A DNA stretch of 33,448 bases from a virus. The stretch is from IMG/VR virus record IMGVR_UViG_3300048921_000578, positions 1-33,448 of that record; one strand, 5' to 3'. The notes below the pieces were generated by a model that saw only the letters and a list, made by a program, of their open reading frames with translations, did no database searches and was not told where the DNA came from. Below, one piece after another: positions 26,148 through 32,139 of the stretch (positions are counted from its first letter, which is position 1; every line of letters starts with the position of its first letter). A program made the translations under genes and the position numbers.

Positions 26148-26389
26148 AGCCTTGGTCGCCTGCGCATCATCGGGACGGCCGCTGCTGACTCGTCGACGGC
26201 GTAACGCATGCGAGGGCGCCAATTGCCGTTGCGCTCCAGGCTTACCGCCTTCAACCGGCAATGCTGCATCGCCTGCTCGATGACTCCGATGGTGGTCGAC
26301 AGGCACTGCGCCAGCTCGAACTTGGTCATGGGCTGCAGCCGCAGGGCAGCTTCGATGCGTTCCGGCATCGATGTCGGATTGGCGGTCAT
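26144..26389 (-). CDS. small winged-helix-like protein
   Basis: 81 residues from the ATG at 26389, which overlaps the stop of the P-like gene (ATGA). The segment ERIEAALRLQPMTKFELAQC followed by a second helix (IGVIEQAMQHCR) and a strand with NGNWRPRMRY looks like a compact winged helix DNA-binding domain. The C-terminus is basic (MMRRRPRL). It is probably a regulatory or replication accessory protein; no family assigned. Confidence 0.6.
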   Translation of the reverse strand: MTANPTSMPERIEAALRLQPMTKFELAQCLSTTIGVIEQAMQHCRLKAVSLERNGNWRPRMRYAVDESAAAVPMMRRRPRL

Positions 26390-27060
26390 GCATTCCCAGT
26401 CGCCTCCGTGCCGCCCGTACGGAAGATGGCAGCGATACGCGACAACTCGGCGCGCGCGGTTGCATCGCTCGCCGGCACCGGCTTGGTCCGCTTCTGGAAG
26501 CCGATCACGCCTGCCAATTCCGGCGGCAACTCGCCACCAGTGATGACGTGACGACATGTCAGCTCATAGGCCTCATTGACGGCGCGATCGAACCGGAACT
26601 CGTCGCCGCAGTTGTAACTGTCGCGGTCCATGTACGACCACACCTGACGCATGAAGGGCGTACGCTGCTCCGGCGGATATTTCAGGTCGTGGCGCACCTG
26701 GGCCAGGCTCGGCACCCCGATGCACATGGCGCGGAAGCGCGGCGCCGACGGCGGCCACTCCAGCCCAAGCGCAATGGTCTCTTGGAGGCCTACGGCGATT
26801 TGCTCGTGAGTCACGCCCGCCAGCGCGCCAGACCAAGTGTCGGCAGCGCCACCAGCAGGATCGACGCCGTACTGGCTGGTCCATGTCCTACCGAACATGT
26901 GCGCCATCCTCAGCCAGAACTTGTCCAGCACCGGCTGCGGTGTGCGCGCCCTCATAGCTGGCGCCGCGCTTGCTGCCGTGCTCACGGGCTTGTCGTTCGT
27001 CGATGGCCCGCTGGACAGCGTCACCAACGCTTCCTGAGCCACTTGCTGCACTGTTTGCAT
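26386..27060 (-). CDS. replication protein P-like (helicase loader)
   Basis: 224 residues from the ATG at 27060, with SD GGAGG. The core FWLRMAHMFGRTWTSQYG, with a GVTHEQIAVGL segment and then WPPSAPRFRAMCIG, is the lambda P-family signature (FW…W…Gls…Gl…WPPslpeFr…C). P proteins load the host DnaB helicase at the origin through the O protein. Its gene begins inside the O-like gene, overlapping it by 173 nt, which is more than usual. Confidence 0.85.
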   Translation of the reverse strand: MQTVQQVAQEALVTLSSGPSTNDKPVSTAASAAPAMRARTPQPVLDKFWLRMAHMFGRTWTSQYGVDPAGGAADTWSGALAGVTHEQIAVGLQETIALGLEWPPSAPRFRAMCIGVPSLAQVRHDLKYPPEQRTPFMRQVWSYMDRDSYNCGDEFRFDRAVNEAYELTCRHVITGGELPPELAGVIGFQKRTKPVPASDATARAELSRIAAIFRTGGTEATGNA

Positions 27061-27739
27061 GATTGCCTCCAATGGTCCGCTTGGGCGCGAACAGGCCTTG
27101 CCAGCCGTTGCGGATGGCCGTCTCAATCACTTCTTTCGGGGTGAAGCCTTCGGCGCGCAGCTTGGTCAGCTCAGTGATCGAGAGCTCGGCTGCTCGCTGC
27201 GTCAACGGCTTCTTGCGCTCTTTGCGGTCCGCCACCCAGGAATCCCACAGCGGCTGTTCAAGCCAGGACGGCAGATCCACCGATATCTCAGGTGCAGGCT
27301 TCCGCGCACGTTGGCGGTTGCTCTTATTGACGGTTATTGGTGGTTCTTGACGGTTAGTGTCCGCCTGGCGGACTTCGTCGTCCGTCTCCCGGACTTCGTC
27401 GTCCGGCAGGCGGACTAGTCCGCCGCCATCCGAACTAGTACGCGTGCCGGACTGGTTCGCCTCGCGTACTAGTTCGGGATCCGAATAGCGCGAAGGCGTA
27501 ACGACGTATGACGTGCTGTAGCGATTGCTCCGATCCGCGCGGATTGCGCCGGCCGATTCCAGCCACTTGATCGCATCGATCACGGCGGTTCGGCCAAAGC
27601 ATGTCCGCTCGCAGATCTTCGTCAGTGACGGCCAGCAGTGCCCGTGATCGTTGGCATTGTCCGCCAGCGAGATCAGAACCGCTTTCGGCGTAGGCGGCAT
27701 CTGCAATGGCCAGCATGCGCTCATGATGATGGTGCTCAT
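26888..27739 (-). CDS. replication initiator, O-like (winged-helix N-terminus)
   Basis: 283 residues. Residues ~15-70 form a winged-helix domain (PTPKAVLISLADNANDHGHC, then WPSLTKICERTCFGRTAVID) of the phage replication O type that binds origin iterons. A flexible linker with repeated DDEVRE/DDEVRQ follows; these codons contain the iteron array at 27369-27476. The C-terminal region (helical, SWVADRKERKKPLTQRA) would contact the P-like loader. The start at 27739 is preceded by a GAGG about ten bases upstream; an internal ATG at 27724 is an alternative. Confidence 0.82.
   Translation of the reverse strand: MSTIIMSACWPLQMPPTPKAVLISLADNANDHGHCWPSLTKICERTCFGRTAVIDAIKWLESAGAIRADRSNRYSTSYVVTPSRYSDPELVREANQSGTRTSSDGGGLVRLPDDEVRETDDEVRQADTNRQEPPITVNKSNRQRARKPAPEISVDLPSWLEQPLWDSWVADRKERKKPLTQRAAELSITELTKLRAEGFTPKEVIETAIRNGWQGLFAPKRTIGGNHANSAASGSGSVGDAVQRAIDERQAREHGSKRGASYEGAHTAAGAGQVLAEDGAHVR
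27327..27477. repeat. iteron array, candidate replication origin inside the O-like gene
   Basis: Six related units. Units 1-2 are identical 16-mers (CGGACTTCGTCGTCCG at 27369 and 27390). Units 3-6 fit CGNACTNGTNCG (27411, 27431, 27448, 27465). Start-to-start spacing is 21, 21, 20, 17 and 17. The array includes a perfect 16-bp palindrome (27409-27424) and a perfect 15-bp inverted repeat (27430-27444 with 27463-27477). Two direct repeats TTGACGGTTA (27327, 27347) lie on its left in a less GC-rich part. Lambda has its origin in the same gene. Confidence 0.75.
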
Positions 27740-28022: not shown

Positions 28023-28168
28023 TGGGACTCAGCCTCAGCTTTCGTCTCGGCGCTGCGCGTCTGCTTGCGGATTACCTCGGCTACCGCATGCCAGCCCGAC
28101 AGATCGAACTCCAGATCCGGCAGGTCACGCTGCGATTCTTCCAGCCGCATTTCTACCTGGCCAGCCAT
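28019..28168 (-). CDS. small hypothetical protein
   Basis: 49 residues from the ATG at 28168 (MAGQVEMRLEESQRDLPDLE), preceded by an SD sequence (GGAG) lying within the end of the CII-like gene. It is a charged, soluble, helical protein with a Lys/Glu-rich C-terminus. It overlaps both neighbours (1 nt and 4 nt), which supports it being translated. Function unknown. Confidence 0.6.
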   Translation of the reverse strand: MAGQVEMRLEESQRDLPDLEFDLSGWHAVAEVIRKQTRSAETKAEAESQ

Positions 28169-28626
28169 TAGGAGACTCCACGCCGACCAACCAGTGCGCG
28201 CATACGCTGAAGCGCCCATATAACGGTGCGCTGGACAGCGAGGCCATCGGCGGTGATCTGGACAGCTTCGTTCGCGGTGATTACACCGTCGGCAGCAGCG
28301 TCATGCACGGTGCGCGAGAACTCACCCTCAGCAACCGCAACCTTCAGCATCAGCTGGCCGACCGACTCACCTCCTGCATCAATCGCCTGGTCTTCGCTCC
28401 TGACCAGGACGTAGCCGTGCTGAGCCGCCAGCGCCTGCAGAATGCGGTGGTCACCGGTCAGGGACATGATCCGATCGGCTTCCGCCAGCGTCAGGTGGTT
28501 GCGATCGTTGTTGACGTTGACCTTGCCACGTAGCACGGCAGCGGACATGTCGAGCCGGATGGCCAGCGTCTCGCTGCCGCCCGGGTATTCGTGGACCGTG
28601 GCGTCGGCCGCGTCGATGACATTCAT
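28168..28626 (-). CDS. phage regulatory protein CII family (CP76-like)
   Basis: 152 residues. The N-terminal DNA-binding domain (DATVHEYPGGSETLAIRLDM, then AAVLRGKVN and HLTLAEADRIMSLTGD) matches the CII/CP76 family known from P2-like and other temperate phages. The C-terminal half (GEFSRTVHDAAADGVITANE) is helical and probably oligomeric. Family members activate the lysogenic promoter during establishment. It is the first gene after cro in the PR-like operon, where lambda has cII. Confidence 0.85.
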   Translation of the reverse strand: MNVIDAADATVHEYPGGSETLAIRLDMSAAVLRGKVNVNNDRNHLTLAEADRIMSLTGDHRILQALAAQHGYVLVRSEDQAIDAGGESVGQLMLKVAVAEGEFSRTVHDAAADGVITANEAVQITADGLAVQRTVIWALQRMRALVGRRGVS

Positions 28627-29063: not shown

Positions 29064-29288
29064 TCAGGCTGCCGCCTCGCGAGGCGGCCATACGTCCGGC
29101 CGCAAGGTGCCCTTCTCGACGTGCATACCCTCAGCTTTGCTGGTGTGCTCGTCGATCGCCTTAGCCAAATCGGTACTGGCCCTGCGGCGATCAGTGGCGA
29201 TCTGCCACAGATAGTCCGGCGACGTGCCGGTTGCTTCCGCCAGCTCGCGCCGGCGCCCCATGTCTTCGATGTAAGAGAGAAGGTCCAT
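29064..29288 (-). CDS. Cro-like repressor (YdaS/Cro helix-turn-helix family)
   Basis: 74 residues. A helix-turn-helix (RRRELAEATGTSPDYLWQIA, about 12-31), then RRRASTDLAKAIDEHT and the ending LRPDVWP are diagnostic of the YdaS-type Cro family. It is divergent from cI across three operators. No SD sequence precedes its ATG, and the predicted -10 (29296-29301) puts the transcript start about at the ATG, so the mRNA may be leaderless. An 18-bp perfect palindrome (29071-29088) overlaps its 3' end. Confidence 0.88.
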   Translation of the reverse strand: MDLLSYIEDMGRRRELAEATGTSPDYLWQIATDRRRASTDLAKAIDEHTSKAEGMHVEKGTLRPDVWPPREAAA

Positions 29289-29293
29289 GGATT

Positions 29294-29363
29294 GAATGCT
29301 AGCTCAATGCTAGACATCGATGCAAGCTCGTTGCTAGGCGATGCTTCGCTAGCAGAACGCTAG
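29294..29363. promoter_or_regulatory. OR-like operator cluster with PR (minus) and PRM (plus)
   Basis: Three sites fit CTAGC-N5-GCTAG: 29299-29313 (perfect), 29323-29337 (CAAGC left half, one mismatch) and 29349-29363 (perfect), with centres 24 and 26 bp apart, as in lambda OR. PR is on the minus strand: TTGCAT (29325-29320), 18-nt spacer, TAGCAT (29301-29296); the two sites nearest cro overlap it. The third site lies just before cI, overlapping a weak TAGGCT -10 at 29361-29366. Confidence 0.85.
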
Positions 29364-29372
29364 GCTTCGCGC

Positions 29373-30107
29373 ATGAGGCCGATCAAAGACATTCGTAGGG
29401 AAAACGTAGCGCAGCTGGTGAGATATGCCGGTGGCCAAGCCGCATTCGCTGCCAAGCTCGGCAAGGATCGCAATCAGGTCTATCAGTGGCTGCTGCCGCC
29501 CGAGAATCCTTCATCTCGAGGAATCAGCGATCCCATGGCCCGGGAAATTGAGCGCGTGTCTTCGCTCGTGCCAGGTGCACTGGACCACGAGGGCTCACTT
29601 TCTGGCGCGAGGGAGCCTGAGGCACAACAAGAGATCGTGTCTCAGGTCATCCAGAGATTTGAGACCCGCCCGGGCTATCGTCGCTTCCAGGTTATGGGGG
29701 AAGGCGGCGCAGGCCCAGGGGTGCTGAATATGGATTTTCCCGAGGTTGTCAGGGAGTTGGAAATCGCCGAATGGCGCCTCCAGGAAGAGCTGGGGCGCGT
29801 GCCGTCACCCCAGCGGGTCAAACTGATGACGGTCCGCGGGAACTCGAATGCGCCGCGTATCCGCAACGGCGATATCGTCTTCGTCGATGTCGACGACAAG
29901 GTGCCGGCGGACGGCGCGCTATTTGCGATCGTCCTGCATGGATACACCTTGGTGAAGAAAATCGAAATCCGTCGCGATGGCTTCCACGTGGTCAGCCTGG
30001 CTGACCCCGGTCGGCCTGACATCTATGCGCCAGACCAGTCCGATGAACTGGTGATCGCCGGCCGTGTGCTGGGCGCCATGCAGCTCAGGAAGGCTGAAGA
30101 CCTATAA
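29373..30107 (+). CDS. cI: CI-type repressor with LexA/S24 autoprotease domain
   Basis: 244 residues. The N-terminal helix-turn-helix region (NVAQLVRYAGGQAAFAAKLG, then KDRNQVYQWL) binds operators. The likely self-cleavage site is Ala113-Gly114 in GEGGAGPG. The S24 catalytic Ser is in RGNSNAPRIRNGD (S158); the usual Met after Ser is Asn here. The catalytic Lys is in LVKKIEI (K195/K196). RecA-stimulated cleavage would induce the prophage. There is almost no SD sequence before the ATG, and a weak -10 twelve bases upstream suggests a leaderless mRNA, as for lambda cI from PRM. Confidence 0.93.
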   Translation: MRPIKDIRRENVAQLVRYAGGQAAFAAKLGKDRNQVYQWLLPPENPSSRGISDPMAREIERVSSLVPGALDHEGSLSGAREPEAQQEIVSQVIQRFETRPGYRRFQVMGEGGAGPGVLNMDFPEVVRELEIAEWRLQEELGRVPSPQRVKLMTVRGNSNAPRIRNGDIVFVDVDDKVPADGALFAIVLHGYTLVKKIEIRRDGFHVVSLADPGRPDIYAPDQSDELVIAGRVLGAMQLRKAEDL

Positions 30108-30111
30108 AAAA

Positions 30112-30133
30112 AGCCCCGCTCGATGGCGGGGCT
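30112..30133. terminator. bidirectional terminator between cI and the accessory genes
   Basis: Perfect stem AGCCCCGC/GCGGGGCT with a six-base loop. On the minus strand it is followed by seven T residues, so it is strong for the converging accessory genes. On the plus strand the tail is short (CTTTC), so it is weaker for cI. It separates the two convergent transcripts. Confidence 0.85.
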
Positions 30134-30152
30134 TTCGAAAGCTTTGCGCGAC

Positions 30153-30335
30153 TCACGCCGCTTTGGGAGTGCTCTGGATCGCGTACTTGTCGGCGCTCGA
30201 GCTAAACCAAGCTATGCCCTGCACCGATTCCCCCATATCCTTGATTTTACGCGCAAAAGCCTCTGCTAGATCTGCAGTTAGATCGGTCCTGATTTCCAAG
30301 AACTTCTCGTAGGACAACCCAGTGGTCGGCTTCAT
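30153..30335 (-). CDS. small hypothetical protein (immunity region)
   Basis: 60 residues (MKPTTGLSYEKFLEIRTDLT…), soluble and helical in its first half. A good SD sequence (AGGAAG) precedes the ATG. It is the last of three minus-strand genes between cI and OL and ends just before the bidirectional terminator. No family recognised. Confidence 0.6.
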   Translation of the reverse strand: MKPTTGLSYEKFLEIRTDLTADLAEAFARKIKDMGESVQGIAWFSSSADKYAIQSTPKAA

Positions 30336-30457
30336 GACACTTCCTCGTCTACACCCAGTTACATCTCTGCTGTTACTACAGCTGTGACCATTAGCACGTC
30401 ACAAAGTTCGCCATGATAACAGCCGAGGCTTTTTATAGCATCACTATTTAGAGTGTT

Positions 30458-31039
30458 CTATAGCTCTGACGACACTACCGATAACAGCGGCTCAGTTTTC
30501 GCCTCGCGATTTCGCACGACGAACCAGTTCCCGTGGACGCTAAATTCGAGATGATCATTGAACAAAGCGGTTGAAACTGCTGTGAGAAATTCCTTAGTCA
30601 TCGGTACGTTCGACCAAATCTTGAGCTCTTTGGCCGGCATGACCTTAAATGTAAGTTCGAATGCGCCAACTACAATGGTTGCAGCTATCCAAGCTAACTT
30701 ATTGATATCAGGATCATTATTTGCAGCATCAAGCATCGGCTCGACATAGACCGACAGCATTTTTAGCCACGGCTGCTGAGATTGGGGTCGCGCGTGGACG
30801 AGGTGTACGAGTGCCACAGCCGTCTTAACGCCGTTGATATCGTCAAACACTCCATAGAGCGCCGCCTTGCTATCCCCGGACTGGCCATCTTGCATATGCC
30901 CACGGCTATGGGTGAAGCAGCTTTCATAGAAGACGCGGTTCACGTTCTCAGAATTTGCGTCAACATATGACATCCAGTGCTGTTCTGTCGCACTGAGACA
31001 ATCCGCCGTCACCTGGCGGAACTCAAAAGGAAGCTTCAT
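30458..31039 (-). CDS. hypothetical protein of the immunity region, lower GC
   Basis: 193 residues from the ATG at 31039, which has a purine-rich SD sequence (GGGGGA); the ATG at 31057 lacks one. It is a soluble protein with alternating strands and helices, including WLKMLSVYVEPML and KELKIWSNVPMTKEFLTAVS, which faintly suggest an acetyltransferase-like fold, but no acetyl-CoA motif is clear. Its DNA is visibly more A/T-rich than the flanking phage genes, consistent with separate acquisition. Its place between cI and OL, where lambda carries rex, makes a superinfection or host-defence role possible but unproven. Confidence 0.65.
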   Translation of the reverse strand: MKLPFEFRQVTADCLSATEQHWMSYVDANSENVNRVFYESCFTHSRGHMQDGQSGDSKAALYGVFDDINGVKTAVALVHLVHARPQSQQPWLKMLSVYVEPMLDAANNDPDINKLAWIAATIVVGAFELTFKVMPAKELKIWSNVPMTKEFLTAVSTALFNDHLEFSVHGNWFVVRNREAKTEPLLSVVSSEL

Positions 31040-31099
31040 TTTTCCCCCAAAAATCATAATGTTAGGAAGAAATGTAGAGCGCGGCTCATATGTTTCTTC

Positions 31100-31121
31100 A
31101 TTACCAGTTCCTACTGGTAAT
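31100..31121. promoter_or_regulatory. perfect 22-bp palindrome, possible operator or hairpin
   Basis: ATTACCAGT-TCCT-ACTGGTAAT, nine perfectly paired bases with a four-base loop. It overlaps the stop codon of the upstream minus-strand gene (31111) and lies about 60 bp before the start of the 193-residue gene. There is no T tract on the minus strand, so it is not a normal intrinsic terminator. It could be a repressor site or an RNA hairpin. Confidence 0.6.
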
Positions 31122-31362
31122 AATGATTATGCAAGGCTTGTGCCCCGGGCGCCATTCCCAATTGCAAGAAAATCGCGGGCTCACTGTAATAACCCACATC
31201 CTCGTCGCGCTCCTGGCGCCAGGCGATAACCGCCTCATATTCCAGCGCCAGCCCTTCGGCCAACCTTCGTGCCTCGCCCTCCTGGCCGCGTAAGACCGCC
31301 CTACCCGGCTTTAAGCCTTCTGGCCCGGCGCGGAATGGCTGCACCGCATAGATCACCTGCAT
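31111..31362 (-). CDS. small conserved phage/bacterial protein, unknown function
   Basis: 83 residues from the ATG at 31362 (MQVIYAVQPFRAG), with GAGGG seven bases upstream. Similar short proteins with 'VIYAVQPFxAG…R…A…LA' recur in phage and proteobacterial genomes, but no function is known to me. An alternative ATG at 31413 would add 17 basic residues. It is divergent from the PL-like operon, its start ~100 bp from the OL-like operators, so it could be affected by them. Confidence 0.65.
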   Translation of the reverse strand: MQVIYAVQPFRAGPEGLKPGRAVLRGQEGEARRLAEGLALEYEAVIAWRQERDEDVGYYSEPAIFLQLGMAPGAQALHNHYYQ

Positions 31363-31460
31363 GCCCCTGCCCTCTTTCCCGTGGGTTGACAGCTTGCTGC
31401 GCGCGCCTCTCATGCGCCGCGCCTAACATAAACGTTTGCTGAATGCAGACGCCTAGCTGT

Positions 31461-31506
31461 CTAGCATTATGCTATTGCATGTTTGTCTAGCAATGAGCTA
31501 GCATTC
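31461..31506 (+). promoter_or_regulatory. OL-like operators with PL promoter
   Basis: Two sites fit CTAGC-N5-GCTAG: 31487-31501 (perfect) and 31461-31475 (last base differs), centres 26 bp apart. PL is TTGCAT (31475-31480), 18-nt spacer, TAGCAT (31499-31504). Over 32 aligned bases it differs from PR at only 4 positions. A further partial site (CTAGC at 31453) lies upstream. The leader contains a small hairpin CCGGC/GCCGG (31513-31528) before the SD sequence of the first gene. Confidence 0.85.
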
Positions 31507-31542: not shown

Positions 31543-32139
31543 ATGTTCCGCAGCAGCCACAAACGTTCCATGGCAGTCGTCGCGGCGCTGGTGGCCGGGG
31601 TCTGCGCCGCAGCCGGACCGCAGGTCAGCGACCTGCCAAGCGAGTTGGTCGGCGAGTTCCGCAGCGCCCCAGGCGAATCCCTAGATGACTTCATGGTCAT
31701 CGTGGGCGGTGCCCTGCACCGCTTCTCAGCCCGGACACAGTTCGAGGCCTGCGGTTGGATCGGCGTCAGCGCGGATCACAGCCAGTACGGCGTGATCGCC
31801 TATAGCAATCGCTCGCATATCGCCTGCAACAGCCGCGGCATCGACGTGCCGACCGACATGTCGCCCACGCCCTACACCATCCATAGCCATCCGACGCAGA
31901 CCGGCCTGCAGCTCAACAAAGCCGACCGCATCGCGCTGACGCTGCTGGGCAATGGCACGGTGGTCGCTGGCTTGCAGCGAAGCGCAAGCGCGCCTGCAAC
32001 GGTCCAGGTGGTAACGGACGGGTTCAACCTGGGCGACTACAGCCGCACTGGCTATCTCGCCGCCAGCGGCGGCATCTGGTTTCAGAACGGCGCCGGTACA
32101 GACAGGTTCGTCGGCACCTATCAGGCGGTGCAACCGTGA
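31543..32139 (+). CDS. secreted JAMM/MPN+ metalloprotease-like protein (DUF4329-like)
   Basis: 198 residues from the ATG at 31543, with a strong SD sequence (GGGAGGG). The N-terminus is a signal peptide: basic MFRSSHKR, core MAVVAALVAGVCAAA, cleavage probably after the Ala run; there is no lipobox. The mature part has the JAMM order: Glu in FEACGW (E68), HSHP (H114, H116) and Asp in LNKADR (D128). The gap from H116 to D128 is 11 residues, one longer than canonical, and the usual Ser is not evident. It would act in the periplasm or outside. It is the first gene of the PL-like operon, apparently under CI control. Substrate unknown. Confidence 0.75.
   Translation: MFRSSHKRSMAVVAALVAGVCAAAGPQVSDLPSELVGEFRSAPGESLDDFMVIVGGALHRFSARTQFEACGWIGVSADHSQYGVIAYSNRSHIACNSRGIDVPTDMSPTPYTIHSHPTQTGLQLNKADRIALTLLGNGTVVAGLQRSASAPATVQVVTDGFNLGDYSRTGYLAASGGIWFQNGAGTDRFVGTYQAVQP

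Follow-up and report, generated by a model that had tools for sequence, protein, structure and literature searches.

The window analysed here, a stretch of viral DNA of 33,448 bases taken as a whole, contains what is very probably (we put this at about 90%) the immunity region of a temperate lambda-type phage, in which CI and Cro act on OR and OL operators of the form CTAGC-N5-GCTAG. The sites, the promoter-like elements, the gene identities, the conservation and the co-variation of site and CI domain were observed directly. The genes of the region are:

26386-27126, minus strand: P-like helicase loader (PR operon)
26888-27739, minus strand: O-like replication initiation gene (PR operon)
28168-28626, minus strand: cII-like regulator (Phage_CP76; PR operon)
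29064-29288, minus strand: cro-like gene, 74 aa, YdaS-type HTH, recognition helix SPDYLWQI
29373-30107, plus strand: cI repressor gene, 244 aa, N-terminal HTH and S24/LexA-type domain
31543-32139, plus strand: first gene of the PL operon, 198 aa, apparent signal peptide and HSHP motif (PHROG 16374, unknown function)

The cro-like gene is divergent from cI, with multiple operators of one type between them, and its operon continues into cII and the replication genes. This gene content (cI, cro, cII, O-like and P-like) agrees with the lambda-like OR/OL system proposed in the initial annotation. Elsewhere in the window genes for terminase, portal, tape measure, tail fibre J and endolysin are present, so the window represents a tailed phage built of lambda-type modules. 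Among the window genes searched none was identified as integrase, N or Q, and the PL genes searched gave no match to an N-type PHROG; proteins of this type are short and diverse. A nucleotide search against named phages returned only a short match in a replication gene. The 198-aa protein of the PL operon is apparently secreted, and by eye its HSHP motif is JAB/JAMM-like. Two minus-strand ORFs (199 and 100 aa) lie between cI and OL (30458-31413) in a stretch of lower GC content (0.48-0.56 vs about 0.61). They gave no Pfam, PHROG or NCBIfam match, and their position resembles that of accessory or exclusion genes in other immunity regions.

Family searches showed that the HTH of CI is YdaS-like, with recognition helix DRNQVYQW. 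Residues S158 and K195 of CI are conserved and invariant across the aligned relatives. In the predicted model of CI most of DRNQVYQW falls in the recognition helix (helix 33-40, pLDDT of the block about 84-88), and the C-terminal part matches the C-terminal domains of lambda repressor and LexA; outside the HTH the model is of low confidence (mean pLDDT 59.5) and it was used for domain assignment only. Judged from its sequence, the repressor combines an HTH with a LexA/S24-type domain that is predicted to be self-cleaving. Cro is YdaS-type by similarity of sequence and fold: the best PDB/fold match of its model (pLDDT 87) is YdaS of CP-933P, and its profile matches the YdaS structures 8co2/8c7k with an E value of 3.7e-11. 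The score against Pfam YdaS_toxin (23 bits) is under the 30-bit cut-off. Stenotrophomonas phage S1 gave the only named-phage match to Cro (42%).

The whole window was scanned for CTAGC-N5-GCTAG with 0 to 2 mismatches. At no more than one mismatch exactly five sites were found in the 33,448 bases, three at OR and two at OL. Together with the promoter elements (the palindromic sites are listed without strand) they are:

29296-29325, minus strand: PR, TTGCAT (29325-29320), 18 nt, TAGCAT (29301-29296); cro ATG 7 nt downstream of the -10
29299-29313: OR1, exact; overlaps the PR -10; kept in relatives
29323-29337: OR2, one mismatch (CAAGC); altered base in the PR -35 hexamer
29349-29363: OR3, exact; overlaps the putative PRM -10
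29361-29366, plus strand: putative PRM -10, TAGGCT, 6 nt before the cI ATG, without a good -35
31461-31475: OL2, one mismatch (GCTAT); altered base is the first T of the PL -35
31475-31504, plus strand: PL, TTGCAT (31475-31480), 18 nt, TAGCAT (31499-31504)
31487-31501: OL1, exact; overlaps the PL -10

The initial annotation had spoken of five sites fitting CTAGC-N5-GCTAG and had called for a scan of the phage for the 15-bp site. The number and the coordinates stand, since the scan gave only these five positions at up to one mismatch; strictly, however, they are three exact sites (29299, 29349 and 31487) and two with one mismatch (29323, CAAGC...GCTAG, and 31461, CTAGC...GCTAT). In 200 first-order Markov simulations 0.005 exact sites and 0.545 sites at up to one mismatch (maximum 3) were expected in the window. 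When two mismatches are allowed the motif is at about background level (14 matches vs 12.6 by chance), as would be the case if the sites were chance palindromes, but the exact sites are in ~600-fold excess over expectation and a chance origin is hardly conceivable.

The mismatch in OR2 is explained by the changed base making the TTG of the PR -35, and that in OL2 by the altered base supplying the first T of the PL -35, and both imperfect sites look like a compromise between operator and promoter. An additional CTAGC half-site directly upstream of OL2 (31452-31462) is possibly a degenerate OL3.

PR and PL had been described as near-identical promoters, and a match of 28/32, opposite orientations and a distance of ~2.2 kb were all borne out. 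For shuffled regions the best ungapped 32-mer match between the PR and PL regions had a mean of 18.2 and a maximum of 21. The match is partly due to the operator; outside the 15-bp site 14/17 bases still agree. TTGCAT and TAGCAT are poor sigma-70 matches (7/12), the elements of PR, PL and PRM all being weak against the consensus, and PR and PL were not listed in a generic promoter scan. They were called as promoters because relatives have TTGACA/TTGACG-17-TAGCAT in the same place, namely L010 and L011 at the positions of PR and PL. The exact 30-mer pattern of PR and PL occurred in no other contig in a search of viral contigs. In the OR alignment the PRM -10 reads TAGACT in most relatives.

Relative to a PR start placed from the -10, OR1 is centred at about -18 and OR2 at about -42. 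On the PRM side, from the inferred start and the cI ATG, OR2 is centred at about -42 to -43 and OR3 at about -17. Between -10 and ATG there are 7 nt at cro and 6 nt at cI (29288-29296 and 29361-29373), and 7-10 and 6-8 nt in most relatives. Given these short distances, similar in most relatives, both the cro and the cI mRNA are probably leaderless. Precedents for leaderless messages are cI and cro of PY54 (PMC4488713), and lambda cI and paaR2 of CP-933P (PMC8630535).

Relatives were found by CI protein search alone, which gave five loci with the same N-terminal domain (L007-L011) and a CI that is 34-40% identical overall to that of the window. In 5/5 of these, sites are clustered between cro and cI (OR) and again on the far side of cI (OL), the spacing of the OL clusters varying from 19 to 26 bp. 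Most columns that are invariant in the OR alignment belong to the arms of the sites, and the middle OR site is CAAGC, never CTAGC, in 7/7 aligned loci. As negative set, 63 loci whose DNA-binding domain is of another type were used (named phages, homologues of the CI C-terminus, and distant homologues of the N-terminus). Site clusters were found in 0/63 of these vs 5/5 relatives (Fisher p about 1e-7, which is indicative, as the loci are not phylogenetically independent), and chance palindromes were ruled out by this comparison. Among named phages with CI/Cro similarity, no site was found in Rb1, P52, 587AP2, S1, BgVeeders33, PHB09, Evi, JBD68, CharmingMan and Klebsiella 5.

L006 and L140-L145, with a CI of similar C-terminal domain but different HTH, are without the motif, whereas L032, with the same N-terminal HTH type and another C-terminus, has the sites; the operator therefore follows the DNA-binding domain. 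The CI of L006 is 57% identical in the best matched segment and has a different N-terminus. By eye, TAAGY/RCTTA repeats were seen at about 4870-4945 of L006 in place of CTAGC sites, and this locus suggests a swap of DNA-binding domain and operator. Across loci, as far as sequence comparison goes, the motif co-varies with the DNA-binding domain of CI. This co-variation, and the retention of both clusters and their geometry alongside so divergent a CI, also strongly support a lambda-like OR/OL system. With one mismatch allowed, no CTAGC sites were found at more distant homologues of the N-terminal domain (17-48 bits). Upstream of four distant CI homologues (L177, L181, L183 and L191) TAGC-N4/5-GCTA repeats without the outer C/G were seen by eye, which suggests a wider related operator class.

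The sites could be operators of the YdaS-type Cro only, CI reading other DNA or acting via protein contacts. Such an arrangement would match about 71 freshwater-type loci in which a YdaS/Cro-like gene is the sole regulator seen beside three sites, with no adjacent CI. The motif, however, tracks the N-terminal domain of CI across loci, and the gap between cro and cI showed no further repeated palindrome. As Cro types co-vary with CI types here, the tracking does not strictly separate the two proteins, and we consider this reading improbable rather than refuted. The claim that the sites give the exact DNA target of CI has to be softened: this target is inferred rather than exact, and CI and the YdaS-type Cro probably both recognise the sites.

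For a switch in which both proteins use the sites, we infer CI and Cro binding, activation, looping, Cro competition and induction as follows. CI dimers would bind, via the DRNQVYQW HTH, palindromes of 15 bp (CTAGC-N5-GCTAG). Three of these are at OR, where cro and cI diverge, and two at OL, on the far side of cI at a distance of about 2.2 kb, where the second operator cluster has a matching outward-facing promoter. Bound to OR1/OR2 and OL1/OL2, CI would occlude the outward-facing promoters of the cro-cII-O-P operon (PR) and of the early plus-strand operon (PL). From OR2, whose centre lies near -43 of PRM, it would probably activate its own weak promoter, and filling of OR3 would repress PRM. 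In lambda, sites arranged in this way allow CI to act from OR1/OR2 as a repressor of PR and from OR2 as an activator of PRM. Looping between OR and OL is likely, as judged from geometry only. The YdaS-type Cro, with its similar recognition helix, would compete for the same sites and favour lytic growth. Upon DNA damage, RecA-stimulated self-cleavage of CI (conserved Ser/Lys) would lift repression.

The exact OR1-OR2 pair pattern was found in 115 viral stretches vs 8 for the mirrored control. Most of the 115 adjoin YdaS/Cro/CI-type regulators and some are iteron-like arrays or have no recognisable regulator alongside; the carriers are mostly uncultivated and otherwise different phages. The system had been credited with its own operator specificity. 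One operator word is indeed used at OR and OL, but the claim is too narrow, the word being common to many phages. In bacterial genomes of one order the exact pair was absent (0/398); the G001 prophage was missed by the pair pattern because its OR1 is a variant. Removal of two duplicates left 125 pair places. A gene with a YxYQ-like HTH is adjacent in 88/125, a count that is partly circular since the pattern was written from the same proteins; independent of the HTH pattern, 8/10 representative neighbouring proteins match PHROG transcription regulators. Eleven motif-pair loci have both CI and Cro. Three OR sites are present in 10/11, and a second cluster in 6/11, always on the cI side and never on the Cro side; there is no OL cluster in 5/11, for some of which the contig is short on that side. 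The draft bacterial genomes holding the L010 and L011 prophages contain the exact motif once each, at the prophage OR3, so in these two genomes the random scatter that the initial annotation named as refuting was not seen. With one mismatch allowed the two genomes have 7 and 12 places, in both cases including four within the prophage, vs 76 and 169 for the mirrored control. In ~70 freshwater-type contigs (L012-L022 and similar) three sites lie by a single YdaS/Cro-like gene (NEQYLYQCLTGRR), without an adjacent CI, and in contigs of this type a TTGAC -35 overlaps the middle site.

CTAGC-based arrays with an 11-bp period were seen in L023, L029, L039, L063, L067, L073, L086 and L100, several beside or within O-like replication genes; the arrays in L023, L029 and similar loci look like origin iterons built on the CTAGC word. 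Among the pair places, 14/125 are such iteron-like 11-bp-period arrays without a YxYQ-like HTH gene. This subset, in which several arrays are next to O-like genes, speaks for CTAGC arms that serve as replication iterons or as a packaging or recombination signal. In the window, by contrast, the sites are 24-26 bp apart and overlap promoter elements, and they lie in two separate intergenic regions flanking cI with none in the O-like gene, which makes such a role very unlikely there.

We tentatively propose, as a doubtful extension, that CTAGC-N5-GCTAG (core TAGC-N4/5-GCTA) may be a common operator word for YdaS-type Cro/CI recognition helices in which Gln follows a residue that is aromatic or small (Y/W/S-Q). 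Phages that are otherwise unrelated might on this view form one large cross-immunity group, whose specificity would be preserved by the rarity of CTAG in bacterial chromosomes. For a repressor family without a close cultured member among the proteins found here, the analysis assigns operators from sequence alone, in a form open to testing, and it links one DNA word to a recognition helix in phages that differ widely. Metagenomic contigs could in this way be used to predict the targets of CI/Cro and the likely immunity groups.

The closest experimentally studied system found is the PaaR2/YdaS switch of the cryptic prophage CP-933P of E. coli O157:H7 (PMC8630535). It shares with the window a YdaS-type Cro divergent from a repressor gene that is leaderless (probably so in the window), operators overlapping PR and PRM, and a PL which has operators of its own and repeats the -35/-10 of PR; its YdaS is the nearest solved structure to the window Cro. 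It differs in its operators, which comprise four palindromes of 18 bp (consensus GTTTAGTAA) and further pseudosymmetric sites, whereas the window sites are CTAGC-N5-GCTAG and not of the GTTTAGTAA type; in addition, PaaR2-His, of about 15 kDa, is much smaller than the window CI, and the repressor gene is in a toxin-antitoxin operon (PMC8630535). The immB region of the telomere phage PY54 has leaderless cI and cro mRNAs, as is probable for the window, in a lambda-related switch, but Cro there binds a single operator (PMC4488713). Stenotrophomonas phage S1 shares the Cro match (42%) and has a regulator with a YdaS-like HTH nearby, but has no CTAGC-N5-GCTAG at up to one mismatch in the region examined. 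Lambda likewise has divergent cI and cro with three OR sites, an OL on the far side of cI, PR and PL facing outward, a CI with a LexA-type C-terminal domain, and cII and O/P after cro. It differs in operator word and HTH; in the window two OL sites were found, not three, no N homologue was found, and cro appears leaderless. Hall, Lefevre and Cordes (2005) reportedly correlated Cro recognition helices with OR half-sites, so the helix-to-operator approach is not new. Among 30 of the 124 titles listed for CTAGC operators, none relevant to the CTAGC-N5-GCTAG operator word was found. The OR/OL architecture is known and ordinary for temperate phages; new are the operator word and its breadth.
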